DNA of 62,805 bases from Candidatus Zipacnadum vermilionense (GCA_029821755.1 JALGSV010000020.1:1-62805); one strand, 5' to 3'; shown: positions 27,510 to 57,230, counted from the stretch's first letter. Notes: generated from the letters alone by a model not told the origin. Made by a program: numbers and translations.

Positions 27510-27803
27510 ATGCTTCATGAGCCAGCCTCAACGGGGGGAAAGGACCCCGCTGCTCCTTACAAGGCGCGGCTGGGGGTCTGGATGTTCATTTTCTATAGTC
27601 TGTTCTACGCTGGCTTCGTCGCGATCAACCTCGCCAGCCCCACCAGCATGGAACTCACGGTGTTAGCGGGGCTGAATCTGGCGACCGTTTATGGATTCGC
27701 CCTGATTGTGGTTGCTCTCATCCAGGCGCTGATCTACGACAAGCTCTGCCGGGCCCAGGAGGCTAAGCTGGCTGGTCCGGACGACGAAGGAGGCGATAGC
27801 TAG
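27510..27803 (+). CDS. DUF485 membrane protein, symporter partner (YjcH-like)
   Basis: 97 residues from the ATG at 27510 (AAAGAGG 7 nt upstream); the frame is open further upstream but that part is not convincing. It has two predicted membrane segments, LGVWMFIFYSLFYAGFVAI and LNLATVYGFALIVVALIQAL, and ends YDKLCRAQEAKLAG. This is the DUF485/YjcH pattern: short two-helix proteins encoded directly before acetate/pyruvate-type sodium:solute symporters. The next gene starts one base after its TAG, so translational coupling is likely. Its role is presumed to be a small partner or assembly factor of the transporter. Confidence 0.85.
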   Translation: MLHEPASTGGKDPAAPYKARLGVWMFIFYSLFYAGFVAINLASPTSMELTVLAGLNLATVYGFALIVVALIQALIYDKLCRAQEAKLAGPDDEGGDS

Positions 27804-27804
27804 A

Positions 27805-29724
27805 GTGGCCATCGCCATCTTCCTCGGGTTCGTGCTGTTCGTGTTGGGTCTCTCATTCTACCTCGGCAACAAGACTCGCACCTCTAGTGGCTACTACGCG
27901 GCTGGTGGCCAGATCCACTGGGGCGTCAACGGCATCGCCTTCGCCGGCGACTATCTGTCGGCTGCCTCGTTCCTAGGCATCTGCGGGCTGATCGCGACGG
28001 TCGGCTACGACGGTTTCCTCTACTCCATCGGTTACCTCGCCGGCTGGATCGTGGCGCTGTTCGTCGTGGCTGAACCGATGAAGCGGCTCGGCAAGTACAC
28101 CTTCACCGATGCCTTGGACGCCAAGTATGACTCCCGCGGCATCAAGCTTGCTGCGGCCATCAGCACTCTGATTGTCTCGGTCTTCTACCTGATCCCGCAG
28201 ATGGTCGGCGCAGGCGTGCTCGTGCAGCCGCTGATGGGTCTCGCGCATCACTGGGGCGTTCTCATGGTGGGCGCGATTGTGATCACGATCGTCGCCACGG
28301 CCGGCATGGCCTCCACTACCTACGTGCAGTTCATCAAGGGCGCTTTGCTCATCGTCTTCTCCACCGTGCTGGTTATCGCCGTATGCAATCGCGGCTTCAG
28401 CACCCGGCCGGATCAGGGCGGGAAGGTGCCGTTCTATGAATACCAGTCCCTGTCCGCTGTGAAGGCGGGGGATACCCTCAGCGTCACCGGCGGCTGGCAA
28501 GTGCTGGAGACGCAGGAAGTGAAGGCGGCCCAGGCCAGCTTCGCAAGACTCTCGAAGGACAAGAAGGAGTTTTGGTGGTTGATCGACGAGGAGGGCGGGG
28601 CCGTGACGCTGCGCGAGACGCAGACGGCGGTTGAGACCCGAGACGGGCGTCAGCTCATCAACGGCGCCCCTGCCTCCGAGCAGAACCAGCTTCGCCAGGT
28701 CAGCAACCTCCAACTGGTGCGTGGGGCCAAAGAAGCTCCGGTGGGTCGGGTCTCCCCGGTGGGCCTGCTCTCGACGATGGCTGACAAGGAGACCAAAGTC
28801 CGCCGGTGGAAGGACGGGAAGCTCACTGACAAGGACGGCAACAAGGTCACGATATACTTCCCCGTCGTGACACCGGGCAACACGCTGATGCGGCCCGGGC
28901 TGAAGTTCAAGGTGCAGGGCTCGCCGGTGCAGAAGCTGGACTTTGTCTCCCTGATGCTCGCCCTGTTCCTGGGTACAGCGGCCTTGCCCCACATCCTGAT
29001 CCGCTACTACACAGTGCCGAACCCCGCCGCGGCGCGCAAGTCGACCATCGTCGCTGTCGCCGCCATCGGTTTCTTCTACATCCTCTCGCTGTTCATGGGG
29101 CTGGGCGCGATGATGAACGGGGTCCTCAACCCGGCCGACAGCAACATGGCGGCGCCGCTGCTGGCGCGTTCGTTCGGCAATACCCTATTTGCTATCATTT
29201 CTGCCATCGCCTTTGCGACAGTGCTCGGGACGGTCAGTGGTCTGATCGTGGCTGCCTCAGGCGCGGTAGCCCATGATTTTTGTGATCGCTTCATGAACGT
29301 GCGCATGTCCGACCGGCAGAAGATCCGCGCCGGCAAGATCTCCGCCTTTGTGATCGGGGCCCTGGCCATCGTCCTGGGGATCATCTTCAAGGGCGTAAAC
29401 GTGACCTTCCTGGTGGGGCTGGCCTTTGCAGTCGCCGCTGCCGCCAATCTGCCTGCGATCGTGATGATGCTGTTCTGGAAGGGCACTACTGCCAAGGGCA
29501 TTACCGCCTCGATCGGCACCGGTATCGTGTCCTCATTGGCACTCATCTGCTTCTCGCCGTCCCTATACAAGTTGTATGGGCTTGATCCGACCACGGCGCC
29601 GATTCCGTTCAGCAACCCGGGCATCATCGCGATCCCGCTGAGTTTCTTGACGCTGGTCGTGGTCTCGCTGTTGACGAAGCGATCCGCGAAGGCCGCCGGT
29701 GAGCCCGAGGCCTCGACGACCTAA
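27805..29724 (+). CDS. actP: Sodium:solute symporter, ActP-like, with large soluble insertion
   Basis: 639 residues from a GTG start; AAGGAGG lies 11 nt upstream. Multi-helix SSS-family transporter: SGYYAAGGQIHWGVNGIAFA, GDYLSAASFLGICGLI, LVQPLMGLAHHWGV and FAIISAIAFATVLGTVSGL. E. coli ActP has ~549 residues. The excess here is a hydrophilic block, roughly residues 198-370, between two membrane helices, containing KAGDTLSVTGGWQVLETQE and a charged KVRRWKDGKLTDKDGNKV. ActP relatives import acetate, glycolate or pyruvate with Na+. The DUF485 partner upstream and the sensor/DUF294 gene downstream match the known neighbourhood of this family. Substrate is inferred from family membership. Confidence 0.88.
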   Translation: MAIAIFLGFVLFVLGLSFYLGNKTRTSSGYYAAGGQIHWGVNGIAFAGDYLSAASFLGICGLIATVGYDGFLYSIGYLAGWIVALFVVAEPMKRLGKYTFTDALDAKYDSRGIKLAAAISTLIVSVFYLIPQMVGAGVLVQPLMGLAHHWGVLMVGAIVITIVATAGMASTTYVQFIKGALLIVFSTVLVIAVCNRGFSTRPDQGGKVPFYEYQSLSAVKAGDTLSVTGGWQVLETQEVKAAQASFARLSKDKKEFWWLIDEEGGAVTLRETQTAVETRDGRQLINGAPASEQNQLRQVSNLQLVRGAKEAPVGRVSPVGLLSTMADKETKVRRWKDGKLTDKDGNKVTIYFPVVTPGNTLMRPGLKFKVQGSPVQKLDFVSLMLALFLGTAALPHILIRYYTVPNPAAARKSTIVAVAAIGFFYILSLFMGLGAMMNGVLNPADSNMAAPLLARSFGNTLFAIISAIAFATVLGTVSGLIVAASGAVAHDFCDRFMNVRMSDRQKIRAGKISAFVIGALAIVLGIIFKGVNVTFLVGLAFAVAAAANLPAIVMMLFWKGTTAKGITASIGTGIVSSLALICFSPSLYKLYGLDPTTAPIPFSNPGIIAIPLSFLTLVVVSLLTKRSAKAAGEPEASTT

Positions 29725-29737
29725 CCGCAGGGGCATG

Positions 29738-29765
29738 TTGACGACACTGAGACATGCGGTACAAT
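29738..29765 (+). promoter_or_regulatory. Candidate sigma-70-type promoter
   Basis: TTGACG at 29738-29743 and TACAAT at 29760-29765 with a 16-nt spacer, 84 nt before the ATG of the sensor fusion gene. It suggests that the sensor can be transcribed independently of actP, although the gene is only 124 nt downstream. Confidence 0.5.
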
Positions 29766-29848: not shown

Positions 29849-32800
29849 ATGACCGATACCACGCGAGTTGACTTCCATTGTCACTCCACCCACAGCGACG
29901 GGGCGCTTACCCCCCGTGAGGTGGCGCTGGAACTCGCTGCCGGGAAGGTGGCCTTTGCGGCACTGACCGACCACGACAGCGTGGATGGTCTGGCGGAGTT
30001 CCAGCAGGTTCTCACCTCGCGCGGTGTCGGCTTCATCCCCGGGGTGGAGCTCACTGTGCAGTACCAGGGGCGCGAGGCCCACCTGCTGGCGTACGGCATC
30101 GACCCGGCCCACCCCGACCTGCAGGCCACGCTCCTCTCCTTGCAGCAAGCGCAGGCCCCGGGCGTGCAGAGCATCGCAGAGACCATGCGCTTGCGCGGTA
30201 CAGTACCCACGCATGACCCGCAATCCCCCGCCGTCACTGCCGCCAAAGGGGGCCTCCTTGCTGTCGCGGAGGCCATCGAATTGGTGCATCGCGCGGGAGG
30301 CAAGGCCTTTCTGGCGCACCCGTTGGTGTTCGAGGCCGATCACGAGCGACTGCGCGTGCTGGTGACAGACCTCAAAGCCCAGGGGCTGGATGGCCTCGAG
30401 GCACTCTACGCCCCCTTCACGCCCTCACAGCGAGACGAGCTAGTGGGGTTGGCGCGTGAGTTGGGGCTCCTGGTCAGTGGCGGCACGGACGCGCACGAGC
30501 GACGGTCCGGCCCCGCCAACGCGTTCGGCGTTCAGATGCCGACGCCGGTCTGGAAGCAGTTCCGCGACGCTGTGTTCTCCAGCGGGGTTGTGCGCGGCAA
30601 CAGCCTCACTCACGCGCTGCCTCCTACCCGCCGCCACCCCAAGTGGCGCCACTTTATCTTCCACTTCATCTTCCCCGCCTTCCTCGCGCTCGCCCTGTTC
30701 GCAGGAGCCATGTTCGGTGTCTTCCTGCCCACCTTCCAGCGCTCGCTCATGGAGCGCAAGCGCGAGATGATCCGCGAACTCACCAACTCAGCCTGGAGTA
30801 TCCTCGCCGAGCATTACCGCGATGAGCAGTCGGGGGCCCTGACGCGGGCCCAGGCGCAGGAGGTAGCCCGGTCGCGGATCGAGTCCCTCCGCTACGGACG
30901 CGAGAGCAAGGACTACTTCTGGCTGCAGGACCTCGAGCCGCGCATCATCATGCACCCCTATCGCCAGGACCTCAACGGGCAGAACGTGTCCGACTTCCGG
31001 GATACCCAGGGCACACGGATCTTCGTCGAGTTCGCCCAACTCGTGCGGCGGCAGGGCGAGGGGTACGTCGAGTACTACTGGCAGTGGAAGGACGACCCCA
31101 GCCGGGTAGTGCCCAAGGAATCCTACATCCGCGAGTTCCAGCCCTGGGGCTGGATCATCGGTACGGGGATCTACCTAGACGACGTGCGCGCGGAGATTGC
31201 CCGTGTCCAGCGGAGCCTGGTGCATACGTTGCTGGTCATCACGGCAGTAGTGGCGCTATTGCTCCTCTACGTCATGCAGCAGAGCCTGGCCCTCGAGCGC
31301 GAACGCTCGGAGGCGGAGGAGAGCCTGCGTGATTCCACTGAGCGTTACCGGTCTCTGGTTGAGGCGACTACCGAGGGAACGTTACTGGTGCTCGAGGGCC
31401 GCTGCCGCTACGCCAACCCCATCTTCCTCGACCTGCTGGGCTACGGCGAGCAGGAGCTGGGGCTCCTGCATCTGGACGACCTGCTGGTGGAGACCGGAGA
31501 GAACGAAGCGGCGTGGGCGAACGTGCGGCGTATCCAAGAAGACGAGGCGGTGGTCGACGGCTTCGATGGCGTGCTGCGGCGACGGGACGGAGTGCTGATC
31601 GACTGCGTCTTCTCGCTCAGCCGCATGGCGGTTGGCGAGGAGCACGGGTTCATTCTGCTGGCGCGCGATGTCAGCCTGCAGCGCCGGCATGGTCAGGAGG
31701 GAACCGTGGACAGCGATCGCCGCCTCCAGCAGATCGTTGACAACATCCCCATCGGAGTCTTCCGGGCGCGGGCTACAGCACGCGGCACCGTCACGGAAGC
31801 CAACCGCGTGGCGACGGAGATCCTGGCCTGCGCCCACGGCGGTGGAGGCGACACGCCGCTGACGCTGGGCGGGTTGTTCCCCGAGGCCGCGGCCTACGAC
31901 GATTTCTTGGCCGAGTTGCAGCAAAGCGGGGCCGCTGAGCGCCGCCTGGCCGTGACGACCGAGGCTCCCAGCACGCGCACCGTCGACCTGCAGGCAGTGC
32001 TGGTCCGCGATGACAAGGGGGCAGGGCGCTACGTTGACGGGGTGCTGGCCGATGTCACCCTGCACGTGCAGCGCAACGTGAAGCGCGAAGCGGTCGTCGA
32101 GCGTCTGCAGGCCTCCCTGCTCTTCCTGCACGAGCCAGTGGGTGCGATGCAGCGCCGCGCGGTCTTCTGTGCACTGCAGACGCCTCTGCACGTCGTCGCC
32201 TCGATGATAACCGCCGAGCAGGCGACGGCGGCGCTGGTACGCTCGGACTCGGCTGTGGTAGGCATCATCACCGACCACGACCTCCGCGCGCGCGTCGTGG
32301 CCACCCGGGGGAACCTGGGCCAGCCCGCTCACCAAGTGATGACCTCGCCGCTGGTGACTATCGATGAGCACGCGCAGGTCTATGAGGCCTTGCTGCGGAT
32401 GGAGGAGCGAGGAGTCCAGCACCTGGCGGTCACTGACGAGAGCGGACAGGTGAGTGGGGTCCTGCGTAATCAGGAGCTGCTGCAGTTCCAGAGCTATGGA
32501 GCCATCGTGCTTAACCGCGACATTGCACGCGCGGCAACGGCTGAGGAAGTTGTGCGATCGTGCCGGCGGACGCCGGGACTCGCCCAGTCGCTGATCGATT
32601 CGGGCGCCTACCCGGAGCGCATCACGCGCCTGATTTCGTCATGGTGCGACGCGGCCACGGAGCGCTTCATCGCGCTGGCGCAGGTGGAACTGGGGCCCTC
32701 GCCGGTGCCCTTTGCCTTCCTCGCCCTTGGCAGTCAGGGCCGCCAGGAGCTGACGCTCTTCAGCGACCAGGACAACGCGATCATCTACCAGACACCCGAG

Positions 32801-33538
32801 GGGCGCGAGACGCCCGAGGCCGCCGAGTACCTCGTGAGGCTCGGCGAGAGGGTCTGCGGGTGGCTGGATCAGGCGGGATACCCCTTCTGTCGCGGCCAGG
32901 TCATGGCGCAGAACCCGCGCTGGTGCCAGCCGCTGGCGGTATGGAAGCAGTACTTCAGCGAATGGATCCGCAAGGCCGAACCGCAGCAGCTCCTGGAGTT
33001 CAGCATCTTCTTCGACTTCAGGACCGTGTGCGGGGAGGGGGAATTGGCGCAGGAACTGCGGCGTCACGTGCACCAGGCCCTGCAAGACAGTCCCTCGTTC
33101 CTGCCCCACTTCGCCCAGAAGTCTTTGCTCTTCAAGCCACCCCTGCGTCTCTTCGGACGCATTGTCGCCGGCGGGGAGCAGGCTGGACAACTCAACCTCA
33201 AGGACGCGCTGATCCCCATCGTGAGCTTCGCGCGCCTATACTCCCTGCGCCAGGAACTCCACGAGACGCACACGCTGGAGCGGCTCGCAGCGCTGGCCGA
33301 GCATGGCGTGCTGTCCCAGGAGAGCCAGGAGGAGACGGCCGCAGCCTACAACGTGCTGATGCGGCTGCGGCTGCGCAATCAGGTCGAGGACTTGCAGGCA
33401 GGCCGCGCCCCGGGCAACGTAATCAGCTACCGCAAGCTACGCCACCACGAGGAGACGCTGCTAAACCAGGCCTTCGCCCAGATCACGGCCATTCAGAAGC
33501 GTATCAGTCAGGACTACCTCGGCGGCTCGATGAGTTGA
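29849..33538 (+). CDS. PHP-TM-Cache-TM-PAS-PAS-CBS-DUF294 nucleotidyltransferase fusion
   Basis: 1229 residues in one uninterrupted frame. Residues 1-255 are a PHP phosphoesterase with intact metal motifs: HCHSTHSDG (H10, H12, D17), TDHD (D41, H42), PGVE (E67), AHP (H157) and GGTDAH (D214, H216). TM1 is ~268-293. Residues ~294-452 are an extracytoplasmic single-Cache domain (KDYFWLQDLEPRIIMHPYRQ; GWIIGTGIYLDDV). TM2 is ~457-478. PAS domains lie at ~495-612 and ~622-742, CBS motifs at ~763-880. A DUF294 GlnD/GlnE-like nucleotidyltransferase has GSQGRQE (961-967) and SDQD (972-975), followed by DUF294_C to ~1225. CBS-DUF294 proteins are known next to such symporters; PHP and Cache-PAS additions are unusual. 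Predicted role: sensing a small carboxylate and controlling uptake by nucleotidyl transfer and phosphoester hydrolysis. Confidence 0.85.
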   Translation: MTDTTRVDFHCHSTHSDGALTPREVALELAAGKVAFAALTDHDSVDGLAEFQQVLTSRGVGFIPGVELTVQYQGREAHLLAYGIDPAHPDLQATLLSLQQAQAPGVQSIAETMRLRGTVPTHDPQSPAVTAAKGGLLAVAEAIELVHRAGGKAFLAHPLVFEADHERLRVLVTDLKAQGLDGLEALYAPFTPSQRDELVGLARELGLLVSGGTDAHERRSGPANAFGVQMPTPVWKQFRDAVFSSGVVRGNSLTHALPPTRRHPKWRHFIFHFIFPAFLALALFAGAMFGVFLPTFQRSLMERKREMIRELTNSAWSILAEHYRDEQSGALTRAQAQEVARSRIESLRYGRESKDYFWLQDLEPRIIMHPYRQDLNGQNVSDFRDTQGTRIFVEFAQLVRRQGEGYVEYYWQWKDDPSRVVPKESYIREFQPWGWIIGTGIYLDDVRAEIARVQRSLVHTLLVITAVVALLLLYVMQQSLALERERSEAEESLRDSTERYRSLVEATTEGTLLVLEGRCRYANPIFLDLLGYGEQELGLLHLDDLLVETGENEAAWANVRRIQEDEAVVDGFDGVLRRRDGVLIDCVFSLSRMAVGEEHGFILLARDVSLQRRHGQEGTVDSDRRLQQIVDNIPIGVFRARATARGTVTEANRVATEILACAHGGGGDTPLTLGGLFPEAAAYDDFLAELQQSGAAERRLAVTTEAPSTRTVDLQAVLVRDDKGAGRYVDGVLADVTLHVQRNVKREAVVERLQASLLFLHEPVGAMQRRAVFCALQTPLHVVASMITAEQATAALVRSDSAVVGIITDHDLRARVVATRGNLGQPAHQVMTSPLVTIDEHAQVYEALLRMEERGVQHLAVTDESGQVSGVLRNQELLQFQSYGAIVLNRDIARAATAEEVVRSCRRTPGLAQSLIDSGAYPERITRLISSWCDAATERFIALAQVELGPSPVPFAFLALGSQGRQELTLFSDQDNAIIYQTPEGRETPEAAEYLVRLGERVCGWLDQAGYPFCRGQVMAQNPRWCQPLAVWKQYFSEWIRKAEPQQLLEFSIFFDFRTVCGEGELAQELRRHVHQALQDSPSFLPHFAQKSLLFKPPLRLFGRIVAGGEQAGQLNLKDALIPIVSFARLYSLRQELHETHTLERLAALAEHGVLSQESQEETAAAYNVLMRLRLRNQVEDLQAGRAPGNVISYRKLRHHEETLLNQAFAQITAIQKRISQDYLGGSMS

Positions 33539-45928: not shown

Positions 45929-48900
45929 ATGCCAGTTGAAAGTTCTGCGTATCGCTGTACACACCTGACTCTAGTGGTAAGCTTGATGCTGCTCGCTGTG
46001 TTCCAGGCCTGCGCTCAGCAGACGGCTCCGCCCTTGCCGCCGGGAGCCCTTGTCCAATTCATCGTTACCGAGCAATTCGGGGTAAGCCATCCCGACCAGA
46101 TCATCGATTTTGAGTTGGCTAAGCCGGTGGACCCGGCCGAGGCCTACTTGATCGGACCCGATGGCAAAGAGGTGCCCTACCAGTTGCTGGAGGATGGCAA
46201 GCGGCTCGCCCTGCGCACCAATTTGCCTGCCTCGCGGATAGCGGTGAGGCGGGCGTTGGGCTTCACCTGCGAAAAGTGGGCGGCGGACTACAAGTTCGAC
46301 ACTGCCGGGGTGGAGCAGAGCCTCTCCGTGGAGGCCCCCTCCTTCGCGCCCGGCGATGTGGTGCGGGTGGAGGGCACGACCCTCCCGGAGGGTCTGGAGC
46401 GCGATACCGACTACTACGTGACCATGATGGAGTACCGCGAGGTGAGGGGAGGTTGGGGCTTCTTCTTCATCGGTCTGGCCGCGACGCTCGACGGCCCGGC
46501 GATCCCCATCACCAGGTTCGGCAACAACACCTCCCTGGTCGCCCAGGCGCTGGTGGCGGACCCGGCGGCGGATCAGCTCTACAGCCGCGCGCACGGCCTG
46601 CCCGACGGGTGCCCGGTGACCTTCCGCACGCGCGGGGAGCTACCGCAGCCCCTGCAGCCCGGCGTGACGTACTACGTCACTGAGGCCACGGCGGACCGCT
46701 TCAGCGTCACCGCGACGCGCGGGGGGCAGCGGCTCGATCTGACGACGCTCGGCGACGGCGTGCATGAGCTGATGACCGACTGGACGTGGACGCTGCAGAG
46801 CGGGCGCGCCCCGCAGCCGTACCCCGAGGCGGTGCAGGTGAGGGAGGAGCAAGCGGAGGGCGTCTGGGAGATCACCAACGGGCGGCTGGGAATTCGCGTC
46901 CCGGCCGGCGGGATTCCTCCCGATCCGCAGCGGGCGTCGGCGCCGGTGCAGGGTGTGCAGCTCCGCGACGCGACTTGGACCGGCGGGTCGCAGAACACCA
47001 TCGGCTTCGCCGGCGGTTCGCAGGTGAAGAATATTACCACTACCTTCGTGGAGCGCGGGCCGCTGAAGGTTGTGGTCGAGATCGCCTACGAGCTGGACCG
47101 CGGCGAGTACCGCTATGGACAGCAGCTGGTCAGCCCGGCCGGCCCCGGCAAGTACAGATGCCGCATCGAGGTGCAGGCCGGGCAGCCCTCCGTGCTGTTT
47201 GAGGAGGATACCGACTGCCAGTTCAGCTACAGCTTCCCGCTGGGCGAGGTGACGCTCAACCAGGCGCGCTACAACGGGCACAGCGTCCGCGACGAGCGCC
47301 ACGGCTATCGCCCCGACGGCAAACCGGCGTCCGGTCGCGGGGCCGACTCCTTTTTTGATCTGCCCTTCGACGCCAACTACGCCTCCAGCTACGTCACTGA
47401 CTTGAGGAACCACCTCATCCGCTGGATGCATCCGTGGGATCCGTGGATCTTCGACAGCGGCAACTACTGGATGCTTTACGACAAGGACGGCGAGCAGGAC
47501 TCGCCGCTGATCGGCTACTACGACGGCCGCGCCTCGCGCCTGCGCAACGCCGGGGCGGTAGGCGTGGGTGTCTACACGCGCGCCGCCGCGGCCGGTGCCG
47601 AGCCGCACGCGGGCCTCACCGTGCAGGCCTGGCAGCGCAGTGCCAGCGCGCAGCTATTCCGTGACCCGCGCTTCCAGTGGCGGCTGTTCATTGGCGCCAA
47701 GGACGCGGACATGGCTGATTGGCGGGAGACCCAGCCGATCATGCGGCAGATGAACCTGCACAGCGGCATCAACCTGAACAAGGTGGCCAACTGGCAGTTC
47801 GACTTCCCCGGACCGCCCAACGGTTACGGGAACATGTACATGAGCAAGGACGCCGTGGAGGCGATGACCGAGCGCATCCGCACCGATCAAGGCTTCTACA
47901 ACTTCGCCTACAACGCGGTGTCGTACTACCGCGACCTGATCGATATGTGGCGGGACGAATCCGGTGACCGCGTGCACCAGATGGCCGACCTCCTGTGGCG
48001 GGGCGCCCACGATGGGCTCAACACCCTGGTCAACGGCGGTGGCATCTACGGCTTCGGGTACTGGCACGCCGGGCTGGAGGCCAGCCGCGCCCTGATGCGG
48101 GCCGACCAGATACTCAGCTCCGACCTGGCCACGGAAGCCGACCGGCAGGCGGTCCGCCAGGCGCTGATCTTCTACGCCTCCACTATTTGGGACGACGATC
48201 ACGCCCCGCTGTCGGTGCCGGCGGGGGTCAACCTGGGCACGGCCAACATGCCCATCCAGCAGCAGAACTACCGCGAGATGTATGCCCTGTTCCTGCCCGA
48301 GCACCCGATGATGGAGGGCCGGACGGGGGGCGTGGGCGAGCGGGCGCTAAACATGGTCCGCCGCACCATCAACGAGCACGGCGCGCACATGGGCTGCACC
48401 CACTACATCGGGGCGGCCATGGGGCCGCTGATGTCTACTCTACAACAGCTCAAGCAGCTCGGCCTCGTCGACGCCTTCCAGGTGGAGCCGCGTCTGAAGA
48501 AGTACGCGGAGTTCGAGATGAACTTCTCCACGCCGCCCGACCCGCGCTTCGACAACCGGCGGGTGCGACCGGCCATCGGCGACAGCGAGCCCGGGGAGGC
48601 CACCGAGTTCCTGGGGCAGTTGGCGACCGCCTATGCCGATATTGACCCGGACCTGTCCGCGCGGCTGATGGGCGCCTGGAAGCAGGCCGGCAAGCCAGAG
48701 TCGGACTTCCATGGGGCGACCATCCTCAAGATCGACGAGACGCTCCCCGAGGCCGATCCGAAGCTGGCCTCGATCCACTTCGAGGGCTGGTACTCTGCCC
48801 TGCGCTTCGGCTGGGGCACTCCGAACGAGACCGTCGCCTGGTTCGTCAATGGTGGCTTCTACAGCGACCACGCCTCCAACGACCTGGGTGAGCCGATCAT

Positions 48901-49609
48901 CTACGCGCTGAGCGCCCCGCTGTCGCTGGACTTCGGCACCATGTACTCGCCCCACTCGCCGGGCGGTTTCTTGCATAGCGTAGTGCTGCCGGAGGCCAGC
49001 ATCGGCGCGCCCTGGCTGCAGAACCCGCCGGACGTGACTAAGGGCCCCCGTTGGCGTCAGCCGGTGACGGAGGAGTTTGCGTCCGAGCCGCGGCAGGCCT
49101 GGTCTCGCGCCCGCTTCACCATGGGCGAGACCACTTGGACACGCACGGTGAAGGTGGCCATGCTCCGCGACGACCTGCCGGCGATCGGCATTCGCGATGA
49201 GTTCGGGGGAGGCGACGCGGAGGCGAGCAAGGTCTTCCTGCTCAACCTCATGGCCGACGGCCCGGTCGAGACTCCCGAGGGACCCAAGAACGTGGGCCAG
49301 GGCTTCGTAGTGCCGACGGGCGTTACGCGTCTGCGTTTCACAGGTCAGGTCTTCGACAAGCACCCCACGGGGGGCATTGACTGGGACCTGTACGTGATCG
49401 CCGACGCTCCGCAGGAGGCCTTCCTGGCCCAGTACGAACACAACGTCCGCGGCGGGGAGAAGCAGACCATCCTGCGCCTGCGCGGCACCGGCCGCTTCCA
49501 GGTCGTGATCGTGCCGTGGTACAAGGGCGCCGCGCCCGCGAACGTCGGAGTCGAGCGGGCCCGTAATGTCGTCACCGTGTCGGCAGGTGCGGCCCAGGCC
49601 ACCTTCTGA
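45929..49609 (+). CDS. Heparinase II/III-like secreted protein with phage-type domain insertion
   Basis: 1226 residues; AAGGAG 7 nt upstream; signal peptide LVVSLMLLAVFQACAQ. Residues ~40-115 are the beta domain that opens this paralogue family. Residues ~132-284 hold two tandem beta units of a type common in phage structural proteins (LPEGLERDTDYYVTMMEY; LPQPLQPGVTYYVTEATADR). From ~300 a beta-sandwich follows, then the alpha/alpha toroid (~600-880: LGTANMPIQQQNYREMYALF; HGAHMGCTHYIGAAM), then the lyase-type beta half (GFYSDHASNDLGEPIIYALS, SLDFGTMYSPHSPGG). Paralogous to the gene at 53485, which lacks the inserted units. Probable polysaccharide lyase; substrate unknown. Confidence 0.7.
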   Translation: MPVESSAYRCTHLTLVVSLMLLAVFQACAQQTAPPLPPGALVQFIVTEQFGVSHPDQIIDFELAKPVDPAEAYLIGPDGKEVPYQLLEDGKRLALRTNLPASRIAVRRALGFTCEKWAADYKFDTAGVEQSLSVEAPSFAPGDVVRVEGTTLPEGLERDTDYYVTMMEYREVRGGWGFFFIGLAATLDGPAIPITRFGNNTSLVAQALVADPAADQLYSRAHGLPDGCPVTFRTRGELPQPLQPGVTYYVTEATADRFSVTATRGGQRLDLTTLGDGVHELMTDWTWTLQSGRAPQPYPEAVQVREEQAEGVWEITNGRLGIRVPAGGIPPDPQRASAPVQGVQLRDATWTGGSQNTIGFAGGSQVKNITTTFVERGPLKVVVEIAYELDRGEYRYGQQLVSPAGPGKYRCRIEVQAGQPSVLFEEDTDCQFSYSFPLGEVTLNQARYNGHSVRDERHGYRPDGKPASGRGADSFFDLPFDANYASSYVTDLRNHLIRWMHPWDPWIFDSGNYWMLYDKDGEQDSPLIGYYDGRASRLRNAGAVGVGVYTRAAAAGAEPHAGLTVQAWQRSASAQLFRDPRFQWRLFIGAKDADMADWRETQPIMRQMNLHSGINLNKVANWQFDFPGPPNGYGNMYMSKDAVEAMTERIRTDQGFYNFAYNAVSYYRDLIDMWRDESGDRVHQMADLLWRGAHDGLNTLVNGGGIYGFGYWHAGLEASRALMRADQILSSDLATEADRQAVRQALIFYASTIWDDDHAPLSVPAGVNLGTANMPIQQQNYREMYALFLPEHPMMEGRTGGVGERALNMVRRTINEHGAHMGCTHYIGAAMGPLMSTLQQLKQLGLVDAFQVEPRLKKYAEFEMNFSTPPDPRFDNRRVRPAIGDSEPGEATEFLGQLATAYADIDPDLSARLMGAWKQAGKPESDFHGATILKIDETLPEADPKLASIHFEGWYSALRFGWGTPNETVAWFVNGGFYSDHASNDLGEPIIYALSAPLSLDFGTMYSPHSPGGFLHSVVLPEASIGAPWLQNPPDVTKGPRWRQPVTEEFASEPRQAWSRARFTMGETTWTRTVKVAMLRDDLPAIGIRDEFGGGDAEASKVFLLNLMADGPVETPEGPKNVGQGFVVPTGVTRLRFTGQVFDKHPTGGIDWDLYVIADAPQEAFLAQYEHNVRGGEKQTILRLRGTGRFQVVIVPWYKGAAPANVGVERARNVVTVSAGAAQATF

Positions 49610-49638
49610 GAGGGTAGCTGAGCAGTGCCGGCGGCTTC

Positions 49639-49687
49639 GTAGGGGCGGATGTCTTGCGGGGTTGTATCTCGCAAGACATCTGTCCGC
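49639..49687. repeat. Half copy of the GTAGGGGCGGAT element
   Basis: Begins GTAGGGGCGGAT at 49639 and folds with an 11-bp perfect stem (GATGTCTTGCG 49648-49658 / CGCAAGACATC 49670-49680). It matches one half of the 156-bp element at 1324 in reverse orientation; the second half is absent. It lies 30 nt after the heparinase-like gene. Confidence 0.8.
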
Positions 49688-49795
49688 GTGTGCGTCAGAC
49701 CCCGGGGATAGCCCCGTCCTGGACGCGATCGGTCCAGGCACAAGCTGCGTCGGCGGCAGTCAAGCGCCGGACGCTGCCAAGAGAGGAATGGTATC

Positions 49796-52700
49796 GTGAG
49801 AGCCTACCTATTGGTGCTACTGCCGTTGCTGGTCGTCTCCGGAGTGGCCGCTCAGGACGCGGTCACGCTGCGCTTCGACCAGGCGATGTCGACCATGATT
49901 GACATCCGCCACTGGGATGAGACTAAGCAGCAATGGCTGGCTGCCGAGCAGCAGGCGGATATGTTCTTTGATGCGGTGGACCGCTTCCTGTTGCTGCGGT
50001 TTCCCGGGTGCGCGGAGGCGATCGACGCGAAGCTGCGCGAGGGCTACGTCGTAGAATCGGCGCGGCTGACCATGCGCTGGGCGAAGCAGGAGTTTGAGCG
50101 CACGGAGGGTTACGCCGGCTGGCGGACGTACAAGTTCGAGGGGGTGGAGCCACCGGAGTGGCATGCCACGGTCCGGGCGGGGCGACGTCCCTGGGTGGAT
50201 GACGCGCAACTCGGGCCTACCTGGAATGCGTACGTCAACGGGGCGGGCTACTGGCGGGCAGGGGGCGGATGGGATGGGCACTACGACTACTATCCGCAGC
50301 CGCTCGGCGAGACGCTGCTGTCAGCAGGCAGCCCCGACGGCGAGGTGGAGGTAACGGCGCTGCTGACCAGCGAGGAGTATGGGAAGGACCTGGGGGAGCG
50401 ATTGCGAGAGCTGGAGTCCTGCGGCTTTGTGGTTCGGAAATCCGAGCTGTTCAACCGGGACATGCCGGCGCAAACAAAGGAGGAGACTTGTACCGGTGTG
50501 TGTCGAGTGTGGATAACGGGGCCGGCGCTGGTGGTGACCTTCAAGCAGACCGAGCAGCCGGTTGCGAGGGGAGAGCTGCCGCCAGCGGTTGACGTGCCGG
50601 AGCTGGCGGCGCGACTGAAGGCGGAAGGCGGAGACGGGCTGCCGCCCTCGCGGATACCGGACAACCTGAAGGAACTAGGTGAGCAGGTATGGGCGAGGCC
50701 GGAGGGCGTGCCGGAGTGGATGTGGCAGCGGGTGCTTGAGGTGCGGGATATCAAGACGAAGTCCACCTACCTGGACGCGAGTATCCACGGCGACCTGACC
50801 TCGGGGGATCCCGAGCGGTACAGGAAGGCGGTGCAGCAAGTGCTGGCCCAGCCGCCCGGCTACTTCGCGGGGCACAGCCATCTCGACTTTCTGATCCCGG
50901 TGCTGCGCTACCCCGCGGTGCTGCCCGAGGCTTTGCGCTACCACTTCCGCAAATACGCTGAGGTCCGCTGGCTGCCGCCGTATGATATGGAAGGGCAGTT
51001 CCACCACGGCGTGGGCTACTTCGCGCGTATGGCCACCCAGAACCACCAGTCGCAGAACCGGAGTGAGGCGCTGCTGGCCGGAGAGTACCTGGGGCTGCCG
51101 GACCTGGCCCTGCGTGCGCAGTACGCGCTGTCGCTGTATGACCGGCAGATGATCTTCAGCGAGGGGATGTGCCAGGAGCGGGGGGACAGCTTCTACCTGG
51201 GGATCTCGATGGGGACGCTACAGGCGGTGGCGCGACTGAGCGAGGACCCGCGCATGCGGCTGAAGGCGGCGATGGACATCGAGAAGCTGCTGTTAGAACT
51301 CAGCTCGACATACCACCCGGGCCTGCGGCGGGAGGTGTCGCGGGTGAGCCGGCGGTATACCATCCCGGAGTACCTCCTGGGTCAGGACGTCCCCCTCGCG
51401 GCGCTGCACATGCTCTCGAAGAAAGGCGTCCTCATGCATCTGGACCAGCGGGAAGTGCATGGGCTGGCGACCACCAACTTCCACGCCAGCGGCTCCCAGC
51501 GCGCGGCGCTCTTGGCCCCTTGGGGACGAGACTGGGAATCCAACGTGATTGACGAGAAGCCGCTCCCCTTCCTGTCCGTGTCGACCTACTACGAGCGCGG
51601 GCTGCTGAATGAGCCGCTCTACGCCACCACCTACTTGGGCCGCCACTACGGGCTCGGCTCGATGAACGCTGACAACAACGGCGAGCAGATGGCGGTGGCT
51701 ACCTGGAAACGTCCTGCCGAGCGCGTGGAATCGCTGGACGACCTGAGCATCGCCTTCCTGTGGGGGAACATCAACGGCAAGCCGCTGTTGCGGCTGGATT
51801 CGGAGAATCCCTTTGGCAAACCGATGAACCCGCTGCTCGGGGTGCTGCAGCGCGACAACAAGATGATCTACGTGATGAAACCGCCGGCGCGCGAGTACCT
51901 GGAAGAAGAGGCGAATAAGGAGGGCTTCCAGGAGATCTCGTCGCGGGTGCATATCTACTGCTACGGACCGGACACGGAGCGGGAGATCCGCCTCAACGGC
52001 AAGCCAGTGACGCAGTTCCCGGCCACGGCGAAGGCAGGCGACGTGATCGCCGTCCACGACGGAGTCAGCTACGCCGGGTTTATCGCCCTGCCCGCGACCG
52101 ACCTGGGACGGACGTCCCAGGTGGTGGTCCGCTACACGTACCCGCTCCTGACGCTGGACAACTGCATCCTGAATGCGGAGAAGCCGGTCATGCCGACGGA
52201 GGAGACCTGGCAGACGCTGCAAGAGGCGACGGCGGGCTGGATCGTGGAGATGGGGGACGTGGAGGAGCACGGGTCTTTCGACAAGTTCTGCACGCATCTG
52301 GCGGAGGCCAAGCTGCAGACCCGCTGGGAGCCGGGGGCGCATACGCTGCATGTGGCGTACGCCAGCGGCGGGGACAACCTGGAGATGGGTTTCCTGGCCA
52401 ACGCCGAACGGCCCGATGAGTCTTGGCGCTCGCTGCCGCCCTCGCAGGTCATGGCCTACCAACGGGTGAACGGCCAGTGGCCGTATCCCGACCTGGGGAT
52501 CGACTTGGACTGTCCCCTGGCCCAGATGGGCAAGGGGCCGCGGCTGGAGAAGGGCGGGGCGGTGCTGGAGAAGCCGGAGAAGCAGATGGCGCTGCTGCGG
52601 GTGGAGCCGATCAGCGGAACCTACGAGGCGATCAACCCCTTCGCGGAGCCGCAGCCGTTCACGCTGCGGATGCCGGAGGGGATGACGGTGCGCTCGGAGG

Positions 52701-53065
52701 GACCGATCGGGTGTGCGCGGATCACCGCACGGCCGCAGGAAGACACGCTGTGGGTGGACTACTACCTGCCGCCACCGGGGGGCGATCGGGCGCTGGAGAT
52801 GCTGCAGGAAGACGCGCGGCAGGGGAAGATCGCCGGGGTCTATCCGGTGGAGCAGAAGCTCAGCTACTACTTCCGCCCCGACTACGACGTGAGGAACATG
52901 CGGCGGGATTCCGCGCGGGCGATACTGGTCTCGGGAGTAGACAAGGAGCCGACGGTGATCCTCAACGGTGAGCGTTTGAGTGGGCCGTTCCAGAAGCTCT
53001 CGCTCGAGGGCAAGAGCTGGTATCGCATCATCATAGCCGAGCGCGAGAGCGCTGGAGGAGAGTGA
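49796..53065 (+). CDS. Large secreted toroid/beta-sandwich protein, lyase-like
   Basis: 1089 residues from a GTG start (AGAGAGGA 9 nt upstream) with signal peptide LLVLLPLLVVSGVAAQ. The first ~300 residues are unrecognised and contain an aromatic-rich segment (GAGYWRAGGGWDGHYDYYPQ). Residues ~320-560 look like an alpha/alpha toroid (YPAVLPEALRYHFRKYAEVR; YDMEGQFHHGVGYFARM; AVARLSEDPRMRLKAAMDIE). Residues ~560-1080 are beta-sandwich sheets (YGLGSMNADNNGEQMAVATW; SRVHIYCYGPDTEREIRLNG; LDNCILNAEKPVMPTEETW). The order helical toroid then beta-sandwich is that of several polysaccharide lyase families, but no signature catalytic motif was recognised. It sits between two clear lyase-like paralogues. 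Confidence 0.6.
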   Translation: MRAYLLVLLPLLVVSGVAAQDAVTLRFDQAMSTMIDIRHWDETKQQWLAAEQQADMFFDAVDRFLLLRFPGCAEAIDAKLREGYVVESARLTMRWAKQEFERTEGYAGWRTYKFEGVEPPEWHATVRAGRRPWVDDAQLGPTWNAYVNGAGYWRAGGGWDGHYDYYPQPLGETLLSAGSPDGEVEVTALLTSEEYGKDLGERLRELESCGFVVRKSELFNRDMPAQTKEETCTGVCRVWITGPALVVTFKQTEQPVARGELPPAVDVPELAARLKAEGGDGLPPSRIPDNLKELGEQVWARPEGVPEWMWQRVLEVRDIKTKSTYLDASIHGDLTSGDPERYRKAVQQVLAQPPGYFAGHSHLDFLIPVLRYPAVLPEALRYHFRKYAEVRWLPPYDMEGQFHHGVGYFARMATQNHQSQNRSEALLAGEYLGLPDLALRAQYALSLYDRQMIFSEGMCQERGDSFYLGISMGTLQAVARLSEDPRMRLKAAMDIEKLLLELSSTYHPGLRREVSRVSRRYTIPEYLLGQDVPLAALHMLSKKGVLMHLDQREVHGLATTNFHASGSQRAALLAPWGRDWESNVIDEKPLPFLSVSTYYERGLLNEPLYATTYLGRHYGLGSMNADNNGEQMAVATWKRPAERVESLDDLSIAFLWGNINGKPLLRLDSENPFGKPMNPLLGVLQRDNKMIYVMKPPAREYLEEEANKEGFQEISSRVHIYCYGPDTEREIRLNGKPVTQFPATAKAGDVIAVHDGVSYAGFIALPATDLGRTSQVVVRYTYPLLTLDNCILNAEKPVMPTEETWQTLQEATAGWIVEMGDVEEHGSFDKFCTHLAEAKLQTRWEPGAHTLHVAYASGGDNLEMGFLANAERPDESWRSLPPSQVMAYQRVNGQWPYPDLGIDLDCPLAQMGKGPRLEKGGAVLEKPEKQMALLRVEPISGTYEAINPFAEPQPFTLRMPEGMTVRSEGPIGCARITARPQEDTLWVDYYLPPPGGDRALEMLQEDARQGKIAGVYPVEQKLSYYFRPDYDVRNMRRDSARAILVSGVDKEPTVILNGERLSGPFQKLSLEGKSWYRIIIAERESAGGE

Positions 53066-53129
53066 ACGACCCAACGGGCTCCGCCTGTACCTGCTGGCGC
53101 TGGTGGGGATCGGGGGAGCACAGGCGGCT

Positions 53130-53423
53130 GCCTTTCCCGCGCAGGTCCTGCCCCTTGATATTCACGGCAGCGGGACCGGAGTTGCTGAGGCCCCCCTCGC
53201 CGAGCGCGAGGTGCACGGTCTTGAGGGCGGCCGAGCGCAGGGCGCCCTCGTTGTGCCGGCGAGCGAAGGCCGGCTCTCCCGTGAGCCGCACGTCGCCATC
53301 GGTCCCCGAAGCCGCTTTGCCGGGTGACAGGAGTACCACGTCGGTCCCCTCCACGAAGGGGCGGACACCCCGGAGGGAGAAAGGGGCGTGGCTGACGACC
53401 CACGAGTATTGTATGATGTTCAC
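53130..53423 (-). pseudogene. C-terminal fragment of a heparinase-like family gene, minus strand
   Basis: A minus-strand frame reads FVEGTDVVLLSPGKAASG, GEPAFARRHNEGALRSAAL and LSNSGPAAVNIKGQDLRGKG. This matches the C-terminal region of the 39288 pseudogene (MEGMDLVLLSPGQP; AGEIAFARVGNDGLVRLAV; LKSSGPVSLEIKG). No start, toroid or signal peptide is present. It is an inverted leftover of another family copy, and it fills most of the 420-bp gap before the gene at 53485. Confidence 0.65.
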
Positions 53424-53484
53424 AGGGAGCTGACGGGTCAGTTCCCGGCGACACTGCTACCCAGCCCGCTGATGGGAGTCACCC

Positions 53485-56400
53485 ATGCGTCTGTTAGTCC
53501 TCGCTTTGCTTGGTGTAGTACTTGGTCTGCCGACGGTGGCGGCTTCGGCCGGGACAGTCAACTTCTCCTATGAGGAAGCCCTCAAGCGGTCGTGGAAGCA
53601 TGAGGTCCTCACTTTCCTCGTTTACGTCCCCGAAAGGGCCGGGGCTACGGAGAAGATGTACGTGACCGACGAGACGGGCGCGGTCGTGGCGGCACAGATC
53701 GCTCCCTCGTCGGTGGTGCTCAAACCTGCCGAGGTGCCGGTCAGCGTCAGTGTGATCGCCGATTTTGAACCGTGGCAGAAGCACACCTGGACACTGCATT
53801 TCGGTGAGGCCAGCCAGCCGTCGGCGCCGCGCACGGATCTGACCAGCGTGCAGGAGCGGGGCAGCTATGTGCTGAGCAACGGCCTGATCGCGGTCCGCAC
53901 CGGGCGAGGCGAGCGGCGCTTCGCCACTCCGGTGTCGGCGGACCAGGTGCCGGCGCCGTTGCTGGCTGTGCGCGGGCAGAGCGGGGCCTGGATCGGACGC
54001 GGGTGGCTGGAGACTCCGCAGCGGGTGGTCAGCTACAGCCTCAAGCTCAGCGATGATGGTCCCCTCTTTAAGCGCTTGCGGGCAGAGTACTACTTTGAGG
54101 GCGGCTATTACCTGTGCACTCTCACCTTGCGCTCGGGCGAAGACGTGGTGCATTTCCGCGAAGAGTTCGACATGGGCGCGCCCTCGCCGGTGCGGGACAG
54201 CAACGTCTGCTTCAGCCTCTACGAGGGCCTGCGGCCCGATACCGTGCGATGGAACGGCTGGTACGAGGACCCGCGCTTCAACCCCACCGAGGCACGCTGG
54301 CTGGACCCCAGCAAGGAAGCAATCTTTCCGATCGACTACCAGCAGCCCGGGCCGTTGCTGCGCCTGCATGGGCTGTTCTACTGGTGGGCGCAGGCCGCGT
54401 GCTACTACGGCGCCTACCGGCAGGATCAGCCCGAGGGGGACCTGATCGCCGCTTTCCCGAAGCGGCCGGGGCACTGGAGCAACCCGACGGTGATCTTCCT
54501 GGAGAGCCGCAAGGGGCCCGACCTGGTGCTCAAGGCGCCGATTCGCCTGCCAGTAACCAAGGGCACCATCGATGGCAACGAGGACCGTACCCCGTACTTC
54601 ACCGGTAGCCTTGCCCCCGGCACTCCGACCACGCGAGGCATCCGGGAATGGGGCCTGCTGGTCTCCCGGCCCGTGGACGCCATCGCCCCGGGGGACAGCG
54701 TGCAGCAGAGCGGCATCCGCAAAGCCTGGACGCGCTACGGGCAGAACCTGCTGGACAAGATCAAGGAGTGGACGCTGCAGTGGTCCGCTCCGGGTGCCGA
54801 GGCCTACCCCCGCGCCTTTGTAACCGCGGCGGAATTGCCCGCCCTGCGCGAGCGCGCGAACGCCATCCCGGCCCTGCAGGCAAAGGTGGGTACGCCGACC
54901 ACGCAGCGGTTCACCTACCTGGTGGACCAGGACCCGCAGGTGGCGGACGGTCTGTTGCATAACGAGGCGGGAGGCGATTCGAACTGGATGGGCCTCTTGC
55001 CCAAGCTGCGCTTCTACGCCTCGCGCTATCTGGACCTTGACGGCGACATCGGGCCCAGCACGCATATGCACCGCGCGGCGGGGATGCTGATGCAGGCAGC
55101 GCCGCTGTATGACGTGGCGATGAGCATCCCCTCCATGACCCCGGAGGAGCGCCGGGAAGCCGCCGCACTCTATGCCTTCCTGGTCTACAAGCTGGCGGAC
55201 CCCGACTACCTGGCCTATGGGACCGGATTCCACCTGGGGAATCCCAACATGCCCACCATGGCGGTGAGCGTGCTCGGCTACTCTGCGGCCCTCATCCCCG
55301 AGCACCCTAGGGCCCCCCAGTGGATGATAACCTCGGCCAAGGGGACGCTGGATATGCTGCGCGACTTCACGGCGCCGGGCGGGGCGTGGCGCGAATGCCC
55401 GCACTACCAGATGGACGCGTCGGTGTCGGGGATCATGCAGTCGGCCACGGTGTTCAAGAACGCCGGCTTCATTGATCTCTTCCAGAACCCCTTCTTCAAG
55501 GCGTCGATGTTGTACCACCTGAAGCTGCTCACCCCCGTCGATCCGCGGTTTGGCATCCGCACCATGCCGGCCATCGGCAACGGCTGCAACGAGTCGACCA
55601 GTCTGTACGGGCGCATGGCGGCGGGCACCGCCTCCAGCGACCCCGAGTACTCCCAGTGGATGCAGTGGGGGTGGAAGGCGGTGGGGTCGCTCTATGTGTA
55701 CCGGAACGACGAGGCGATCTGCGACGAGAACCTGCCGGCCTCCCCGCCGGACATGCGCAGCCAACACTTCCCCGGCTTCGGTGCCGTGATGCGCTCGCAC
55801 TTCGGCGACCCCAACGAGACCTACCTGGTCTTCCGCATGGGCTACCAGATCGAGCACTACGAGGACGACCAGGGGGAAATCGTGCTCTATGCCAAGGGAG
55901 CGCCGCTGGCGCTGGATTTCGCCTCGCTGTATGCACCGTCGATGGTGCGGCCCTGGATGCACAACCGCATCGCGATCAACCACATGCGGGACTGGGGGCA
56001 GATCGGCGAGATCACCCAGCAGAACTTCCTGGCGGCCGCGGACGCCTGTCAGGGCAGCATGACCATCACGACGCTGCTGGAGTACCCCGAGGACCCCAAG
56101 GACAACCCGCTGCCGAATCGTGATCTGGTGACGGAGAACATCCCCCCGACGACGTGGACGCGGCAGGTGATGCTGGTGAAGAATGAGGTGGCCGACGGGC
56201 CGCACTACGTGTTGCTACGCGACGGTTTCGCCGGTGAGGGTGACGACTTCACGGAGTTCACGCTGTGGGACCTGGCCAAGAGCGTGGAAACGCAAGGCAA
56301 CGTGGCCCACTATACCGGCCAACTGGGCGTGGATCTGACGGTCACGATGCTTGACCCGGCGCAGCCGGAGTTCACCACGGGACAGTATGGGCACAACTTC

Positions 56401-56985
56401 ATCTACGGGGCTTTCACCGAGCCGTTCTTCCGGAAAGTCAACGGGCCGGACGCCAAGTGGGAGGAAACGCAGCACTTCATCCGCGTGAAGCGGACCGATC
56501 ACCAGGGATACTTTGCGGTGCTCTACCCGCACCGGGTCGGCGAGCCGGCGCCCAACTTCACGCCCTGGGCGGGGGGCGCGGGGGTGACGGCGACGATCAA
56601 CGGGGAGAAGCAGATCGCCGTGTGCGCGGCGCAGCCGGGGCAGTATGCCGAGGGCGAGGTCGCGATGGAGGGCCAACGCGCGCTGGTGCGCGAGGGGCCG
56701 GGGCGATTGGTGCTGGCCCTGCTGTCGGGCACGATGGTGAAGGCCCAGGGGTATGAGCTGCGCAGCCCCGGCCCGGCGGCGGTCACCGTCGAGGGCGCGC
56801 AGATCACCGGTGAGGCTAACCTGGCAGTGGCCGGGGAATTGGTGCTGACCGTTCCGCCGGGGATCACGGCCACGAGTGCGGTGGTCGAGACCGACACCGG
56901 GGAGCAGCAGGTGCAGGTAGCGCAGGAAGGGAACAAGTTAGGGGTGGCGCTGCCGGCGGGGCGGTGCCGATTTGGGCTGAAGTGA
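53485..56985 (+). CDS. Heparinase II/III-like secreted protein
   Basis: 1166 residues with signal peptide LVLALLGVVLGLPTVAAS. Residues ~22-115 are the family's opening beta domain (RSWKHEVLTFLVYVPERAG). From ~120 a beta-sandwich (GSYVLSNGLIAVRTGRG; LRAEYYFEGGYYLCTL), then an alpha/alpha toroid from ~430 (YLVDQDPQVADGLLHNEAGG; GFHLGNPNMPTMAVSV; GGAWRECPHYQMDASVSG), then the lyase-type beta half with MGYQIEHYEDDQGEIVLYAK and GAPLALDF, equivalent to the catalytic-His strand region. A final ~150-residue beta domain closes it (GRLVLALLSGTMVKAQGYEL). Intact paralogue of the 45929 gene and full-length relative of two degraded copies nearby. Likely a polysaccharide lyase; substrate unknown. Confidence 0.72.
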   Translation: MRLLVLALLGVVLGLPTVAASAGTVNFSYEEALKRSWKHEVLTFLVYVPERAGATEKMYVTDETGAVVAAQIAPSSVVLKPAEVPVSVSVIADFEPWQKHTWTLHFGEASQPSAPRTDLTSVQERGSYVLSNGLIAVRTGRGERRFATPVSADQVPAPLLAVRGQSGAWIGRGWLETPQRVVSYSLKLSDDGPLFKRLRAEYYFEGGYYLCTLTLRSGEDVVHFREEFDMGAPSPVRDSNVCFSLYEGLRPDTVRWNGWYEDPRFNPTEARWLDPSKEAIFPIDYQQPGPLLRLHGLFYWWAQAACYYGAYRQDQPEGDLIAAFPKRPGHWSNPTVIFLESRKGPDLVLKAPIRLPVTKGTIDGNEDRTPYFTGSLAPGTPTTRGIREWGLLVSRPVDAIAPGDSVQQSGIRKAWTRYGQNLLDKIKEWTLQWSAPGAEAYPRAFVTAAELPALRERANAIPALQAKVGTPTTQRFTYLVDQDPQVADGLLHNEAGGDSNWMGLLPKLRFYASRYLDLDGDIGPSTHMHRAAGMLMQAAPLYDVAMSIPSMTPEERREAAALYAFLVYKLADPDYLAYGTGFHLGNPNMPTMAVSVLGYSAALIPEHPRAPQWMITSAKGTLDMLRDFTAPGGAWRECPHYQMDASVSGIMQSATVFKNAGFIDLFQNPFFKASMLYHLKLLTPVDPRFGIRTMPAIGNGCNESTSLYGRMAAGTASSDPEYSQWMQWGWKAVGSLYVYRNDEAICDENLPASPPDMRSQHFPGFGAVMRSHFGDPNETYLVFRMGYQIEHYEDDQGEIVLYAKGAPLALDFASLYAPSMVRPWMHNRIAINHMRDWGQIGEITQQNFLAAADACQGSMTITTLLEYPEDPKDNPLPNRDLVTENIPPTTWTRQVMLVKNEVADGPHYVLLRDGFAGEGDDFTEFTLWDLAKSVETQGNVAHYTGQLGVDLTVTMLDPAQPEFTTGQYGHNFIYGAFTEPFFRKVNGPDAKWEETQHFIRVKRTDHQGYFAVLYPHRVGEPAPNFTPWAGGAGVTATINGEKQIAVCAAQPGQYAEGEVAMEGQRALVREGPGRLVLALLSGTMVKAQGYELRSPGPAAVTVEGAQITGEANLAVAGELVLTVPPGITATSAVVETDTGEQQVQVAQEGNKLGVALPAGRCRFGLK

Positions 56986-57230
56986 ATATGTGGCTATCCC
57001 CTGGGGATGCTCTCTCGACTGCAAGCCCCGGCCCGGACTGGTGCACCACCCTAACATAGCGATGAACCGGGTCAGCGCCGGCCGCACCTGCGCTGGACCT
57101 CCTGGACGCCCATAAGCAGCTACCGCTTCCGCACGCCTACGGTGCCTATGGGCAAGCTGATGACCGGAAACCTGGAGCAGACGCCGCCCTGGCGGCCTTC
57201 CTAGATACCCATCCGAGGAGGAATCGACTC
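56986..57230. other. Intergenic region, possible short gene remnant
   Basis: A plus-strand frame around 57090-57200 reads LDLLDAHKQLPLPHAYG without a start or known family. It may be a remnant. GAGGAGG just before 57231 is the ribosome-binding site of the next gene. Confidence 0.3.

Follow-up and report, generated by a model that had tools for sequence, protein, structure and literature searches.

The stretch of DNA analysed here, referred to as the window, comprises 62,805 nucleotides from Candidatus Zipacnadum vermilionense (GCA_029821755.1 JALGSV010000020.1:1-62805), and its central element is a gene encoding a single protein that joins a PHP phosphoesterase, a transmembrane Cache sensor and a DUF294 nucleotidyltransferase. 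A preliminary description of the window had proposed this architecture within one unbroken 1229-codon frame, and the proposal held: the open reading frame at 29849-33538 starts at an ATG, with this Met conserved in almost all homologues, it remains open over 1229 codons, and every quoted motif was located, namely HCHSTHSDG (residues 10-18), TDHD (40-43), AHP (156-158), GGTDAH (211-216), GSQGRQE (961-967) and SDQD (972-975). The proposed domain series was likewise returned by Pfam as PHP, sCache_2, PAS, CBS, DUF294 and DUF294_C, in that order (bit score against cut-off: sCache_2, 135/25; PAS, 33/23; PAS_8, 44/22; CBS, 53/24). Two details stood in part: the first of the two claimed PAS domains passes Pfam, whereas the second is sub-threshold here and recognised in the relatives at loci L101 and L228, and the CBS motifs are called by Pfam as one copy, with the pair backed by a fold match. 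The features of the protein are listed below.

29849..33538, plus strand: PHP-TM-sCache_2-TM-PAS-(PAS)-CBS2-DUF294-DUF294_C protein (TM, transmembrane helix), 1229 aa; reading frame, Pfam and homologues
29849..30616, plus strand: PHP phosphoesterase domain, residues 1-256; Pfam 33.2 against 26.4 bits, fold and alignment
30659..30736, plus strand: transmembrane helix 1, residues ~271-296; a hydrophobic stretch in the sequence, with the preceding PHP domain placed in the cytoplasm by predicted topology
30746..31213, plus strand: single Cache domain sCache_2, residues 300-455; Pfam and pocket alignment
31217..31288, plus strand: transmembrane helix 2, residues ~457-480; a hydrophobic stretch in the sequence
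31340..31672, plus strand: PAS domain 1, residues 498-608; Pfam
31706..32083, plus strand: probable second PAS-like domain, residues ~620-745; below threshold here, recognised in relatives
32141..32503, plus strand: CBS pair, residues ~765-885; Pfam and fold match
32567..32986, plus strand: DUF294 nucleotidyltransferase domain, residues 907-1046, with GSQGRQE and SDQD; PF03445 152 against 21 bits, and fold
33095..33517, plus strand: DUF294_C helical domain, the GlnE-type C-terminal partner, residues 1083-1223; PF10335 128 against 22.5 bits, and fold

A homologue scan of 84,980 species genomes yielded 168 confirmed matches, the best 80 of which constitute the 80 loci behind the counts given below. 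Most of these loci matched over residues 1-1227 at 42-66% identity (E=0), and their record titles carry more than ten phylum names, including Armatimonadota, Chloroflexota, Omnitrophota, KSB1, Verrucomicrobia, Lentisphaerae, Acidobacteria, Gemmatimonadetes, Latescibacterota, BRC1, Spirochaetes, Phycisphaerae and Deltaproteobacteria; the genomes are nearly all metagenome-assembled, and the phylum names are the labels given in those titles. Thirteen related genomes contain full-length or contig-truncated homologues of the same architecture, one of them with a second copy. In an even sample of the organism's own phylum (151 genomes), strong DUF294 matches (E <1e-40) occurred in eight genomes, in frames of 1147-1351 aa, and all eight also matched the PHP-Cache-DUF294 fusion protein. 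Full-length homologues across many independent assemblies rule out a mis-joined contig, and the other circumstances that would have spoken against the fusion, a split between PHP and Cache or a loss of either active site across homologues, were not found either. Four shorter homologues (L118, L120, L122 and L123) are without the second PAS and CBS region, and L127 is likewise listed among the shorter forms; all five retain PHP, Cache and DUF294. On these alignments the constant core comprises PHP, Cache and DUF294, to which most homologues add the first PAS region. In two trees, the Cache-DUF294 proteins formed one clade (99/98 and 100/100) separate from the classical CBS-DUF294 proteins. Both trees put PHP-less lineages close to or at the poorly resolved root of this clade, a placement compatible with either gain or loss of PHP. 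A literature search, with subscription journals mostly outside its reach, found no paper describing the combination of PHP, Cache and nucleotidyltransferase.

Conservation of the two active sites was assessed in an alignment of 81 proteins. Few of the aligned rows depart from the nucleotidyltransferase motif GSxGRxE...[STA]DxD; in L122, L123 and L127, Ser replaces the conserved Glu of GSxGRxE. The PHP positions H10, H12, D17, D41, H42, E67, H78, H157, D214 and H216, which include nine putative metal ligands (all but D41), are intact in about 71 of the 81 proteins, and the remaining rows are truncated, frameshifted or PHP-less. Both sites are thus intact in essentially all full-length homologues, with one clear exception. 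This is L083 (7117-10974, the same gene as L046), a second copy in the L077/L035 genome, in which PHP H78 is replaced by D, H216 by G, and the nucleotidyltransferase DxD by DxS. Its two sites have eroded together, and the product is possibly a regulatory pseudo-enzyme.

The closest relatives of the sensor domain are PscD (5g4y) and Adeh_3718 (4k08), and PscD binds acetate, glycolate, propionate and pyruvate, contacting propionate through Tyr90, Trp92, His103, Phe126, Tyr143, Trp145 and Lys156 (PMC5062169). These seven contacts correspond to Y356, W358, H369, F392, Y409, W411 and K423 here, with 7/7 identical, and the complete C2/C3-carboxylate pocket is identical in 80 of the 81 proteins. The Cache domain therefore probably binds C2/C3 carboxylates, and the suggestion of a transmembrane carboxylate-type sensor is supported by this PscD-type pocket. 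All seven pocket residues are shared with the sCache_2 chemoreceptors PscD, McpP and Adeh_3718, whose output is chemotaxis, whereas the output here would be the nucleotidyltransferase and PHP domains.

Structure models covered the PHP part (predicted local distance difference test, pLDDT, 90) and the CBS-DUF294 part (pLDDT 91). With CBS-only matches set aside, the best folds for the latter were the GlnE domains (1v4a, 3k7d) and DrrA (6yx5). GlnE and DrrA are protein-modifying enzymes that carry out adenylylation or deadenylylation with adenosine monophosphate. Moreover, DUF294_C has been grouped with the C-terminal domains of GlnD and GlnE by the authors who defined the HEPN superfamily (PMC3710099). 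The modelled folds and this grouping favour a protein as the target of DUF294, for whose family a literature search found no reported substrate. Membership of the GlnE family itself (PF03710) was rejected at 20.9 bits, below the gathering cut-off of 24, though the fold is similar, and GlnD membership was rejected since domain searches returned no HD or ACT match. The analogy to GlnD and GlnE that had been drawn earlier is fair as a mechanism and fails as family membership. GlnE gives the DUF294 part its best fold match and also places two opposed activities in one polypeptide, but it uses two nucleotidyltransferase domains and no PHP, and the membrane sensor belongs to the window protein. GlnD combines a nucleotidyltransferase with a metal phosphodiesterase in one sensor protein, but it is soluble, with an HD hydrolase and ACT sensor domains. 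In the PolX and DnaE1 polymerases, nucleotidyl transfer is opposed to a PHP exonuclease in one chain (PMC6616362, PMC5636811); these enzymes, however, perform DNA synthesis and proofreading without a sensor, and their PHP is less similar than that of RNase AM.

The fused PHP domain is closest in both sequence and fold to RNase AM (7ug9; fold match E 3e-19) and the 3',5'-nucleoside bisphosphate (pAp) phosphatase 2yb1, but differs from both in lacking their ~37-residue RPHxA lid. The span from TDHD to AHP is 152-153 residues in stand-alone relatives versus a median of 115 in fused forms, and the RPHxA motif is present in 13/13 readable stand-alone relatives versus 0/57 fused forms. Assignment as a pAp phosphatase (NF041577; 130 bits against a cut-off of 400) or as an RNase AM/Rnm orthologue (NF047791; 111 bits against 375) was rejected, with scores far under the equivalog cut-offs and the lid missing in either case. 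A variable stretch of low model confidence replaces the deleted segment. The active site is probably more exposed than in the stand-alone relatives and could admit a larger substrate.

A further line of evidence comes from relatives that lack PHP. A profile scan of the 80 Cache-DUF294 loci found PHP without a DEDDh exonuclease in 73, DEDDh without PHP in six, both in none and neither in one (L081, which is cut at a contig end). The six PHP-less loci are from Myxococcota, and a DEDDh exonuclease gene lies nearby in 6/6; in five of them it is on the same strand directly before the TM1-Cache gene, in the place of the PHP domain, while in L110 it is divergent. At L101, a DEDDh gene (RNase_T, 66 bits) and a gene combining a cyclic nucleoside monophosphate (cNMP)-binding domain with CBS and DUF294 lie upstream of the PHP-less homologue, and DUF485 and symporter genes lie downstream. 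No RNase_T call was made among the window genes scanned. Two genomes, G183 and G188, carry a classical DUF294/DEDDh locus together with a separate PHP-fused locus without DEDDh, and in a sample from the phylum of G183, about half of the classical CBS-DUF294 genes have an adjacent DEDDh gene. Precedents exist among polymerases: three or more swaps between PHP and DEDD exonucleases have been described for bacterial replicases (PMC5636811), and PHP is the exonuclease fused in PolX polymerases (PMC6616362, PMC7893174). The eraser would therefore appear to be interchangeable, supplied as PHP in cis in the fused protein, or as a DEDDh exonuclease in trans in the Myxococcota loci and in classical CBS-DUF294 operons. 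Separately, the cNMP-CBS-DUF294 gene at L101 (9401-11380) and its L103 equivalent have a degenerate nucleotidyltransferase motif, GAEGRRE...SSRA, and look like pseudo-nucleotidyltransferases paired with an active one.

Two genes precede the window protein:

27510..27803, plus strand: DUF485 small membrane protein with the conserved cytoplasmic N-tail MLHEPA...DPA.YK.RLG; the first Met at 27510 is a predicted start
27805..29724, plus strand: SSS-family symporter; SSF 218.7 bits

The DUF485 assignment is marginal in the window (26.9 bits against the Pfam cut-off of 28), and the protein is co-conserved in the homologue loci. The nearest NCBIfam models of the symporter are MctC (monocarboxylate) and ActP (acetate), both under their cut-offs. 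Of the 73 PHP-fused loci, 58 have an SSS symporter nearby. Where the distance from the symporter stop to the start of the protein could be measured (49 loci), it did not exceed 150 nt in 45, and it is 124 nt in the window. When the loci were screened for additional recurring genes, the symporter and DUF485 alone proved broadly shared, with imperfect reading-frame calling in high-GC loci. The DUF485 N-tail is strongly conserved in PHP and DEDDh systems alike, which makes it a candidate target or docking segment. Its Tyr17 is conserved at 91%, but many Tyr residues of the symporter and DUF485 are conserved, so Tyr17 is a lead at most. The suggested neighbourhood of a monocarboxylate- or acetate-type symporter is accordingly frequent, but not constant. 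At least ten Armatimonadota loci have no nearby ActP-like symporter, and the symporter's absence at some fused loci implies that the protein is not strictly dependent on one in the same operon. Dependence on a single symporter family was rejected as well, with partners of the DUF485/MctC-like type, the VC_2705-type SSS (L039), the AceTr/SatP type (L228), or none. At L228 (8471-9557, minus strand), the genes before a PHP-less Cache-PAS-CBS-DUF294 gene encode an acetate uptake transporter of SatP type and a stand-alone Cache protein of 189 aa; the transporter matches at NCBIfam grade as an acetate uptake protein of the GPR1/FUN34/YaaH family, unrelated to SSS. A sigma-54 response regulator lies upstream at the same locus.

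Known counterparts are found in Pseudomonas, where PP_0353 (RNase_T) and PP_0354 (a CBS domain protein) form an operon that adjoins actP/yjcH in some species, and where the loss of pp_0353 or of actP-I impairs growth on pyruvate (PMC9927547). P. putida PP_0354/PP_0353 and P. fluorescens Pflu5625 resemble the window system in the nucleotidyltransferase family, the CBS pair, the acetate/pyruvate transporter context and a phosphodiesterase partner. The cNMP-CBS-DUF294/DEDDh system differs in having no Cache, membrane anchor or PHP, in encoding its exonuclease, of another superfamily, in a separate gene, and in its cNMP input.

Taken together, these features suggest a membrane-anchored, carboxylate-sensing, bifunctional nucleotidylation/denucleotidylation switch, a reading that we hold to be about evenly poised between right and wrong. 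Both enzymes would lie on the cytoplasmic side; DUF294 would nucleotidylate its target, most probably a protein and perhaps the adjacent DUF485/symporter system, and PHP would hydrolyse the phosphodiester bond thus made. Extracytoplasmic Cache would bind acetate, propionate or pyruvate, and which of the two activities prevails would depend on this ligand, on adenine nucleotides bound at the CBS pair and on a PAS input. The opposed pair had already been put forward in the preliminary description; in its favour are the intact nucleotidyltransferase and PHP sites under one sensor, and it gains support because PHP is exchanged for DEDDh in the PHP-less relatives, L228 excepted.

Among the alternatives, the one that survives best, which we nevertheless regard as unlikely, is that the nucleotidyltransferase synthesises a second messenger, either a nucleotide or an oligonucleotide, which CBS domains might sense and PHP or DEDDh would degrade, with control at the level of the signal instead of protein modification. 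The PHP relatives RNase AM and pAp phosphatase, like DEDDh enzymes, do act on nucleotides and oligonucleotides, and most homologues have a CBS pair; yet protein adenylyltransferases provide the closest folds over the full domain, with no cyclase or polymerase among the matches listed, the small-substrate lid with RPHxA is deleted from the fused PHP, and L118, L120, L122 and L123 have no CBS region. Less likely still is an RNA-directed pair, in which DUF294 would extend an RNA end and PHP or DEDDh would trim it, for instance on transporter or tricarboxylic acid cycle mRNAs. RNase AM, the nearest PHP structure, is indeed a 5'-3' exoribonuclease, and the authors of the Pseudomonas study speculate that the PP_0353 exonuclease degrades mRNAs (PMC9927547), but the RNase Rnm score of 111 is far under 375, the folds nearest to DUF294 belong to protein-modifying enzymes, and a Pfam search of the protein found no RNA-binding domain. 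The least probable option is mere accretion of domains with unrelated jobs, such as by-product clearance by PHP, or with different substrates in one pathway: neither substrate is known and fusion denotes linkage, not opposition, but a phosphodiesterase of a different superfamily stands in for PHP solely at loci without it, and both active sites are conserved across phyla.

Several observations weigh against the proposed nucleotidylation switch. Neither DUF294 nor the fused PHP has a known substrate. All six PHP-less loci belong to a single clade, which reduces the exchange to one or two events, not six, and the PHP-less L228 has no DEDDh gene in the flank of ~3.5-5 kb on either side. Fifteen of the 73 fused loci show no symporter, with the contig cut in three of those 15. 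In P. putida, deletion of pp_0354 had no effect on growth on acetate or succinate, and pp_0353 (RNase_T) alone, not pp_0354, was linked to growth on pyruvate (PMC9927547). A more specific form of the switch is advanced tentatively, and we consider it doubtful: a new class of one-protein transmembrane receptor in which an extracytoplasmic carboxylate directly sets the nucleotidylation of the uptake transporter or DUF485 via opposed DUF294 and PHP sites, with PHP and DEDDh as interchangeable denucleotidylases. Were the switch real, bacteria would possess a membrane receptor that signals by nucleotidylation, instead of by phosphorylation, chemotaxis or cyclic nucleotides, and the exchange of PHP and DEDD exonucleases seen in replication would reach into signalling as well. 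Genes for DUF294 proteins are frequently found next to those for acetate and pyruvate transporters, and a single chain with a sensor and a probable eraser makes the question of their substrate directly testable.

A few observations lie outside this argument. An Rfam search of the window returned no RNA family. A promoter-like TTGACG-16-TACAAT element lies at 29738-29765 (plus strand) in the gap between the symporter and PHP-protein genes, where 0.6 such elements are expected per 7.2 kb by chance; the PHP protein may thus also have its own promoter. The high-GC loci L073, L102, L103, L112 and L115 contain very long frames on the opposite strand, which are likely composition-driven shadow frames. 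Further downstream in the window (45929-60587, plus strand), four consecutive proteins of 1089-1226 aa gave no Pfam match at E 0.001, and most of them have signal-like N-termini.

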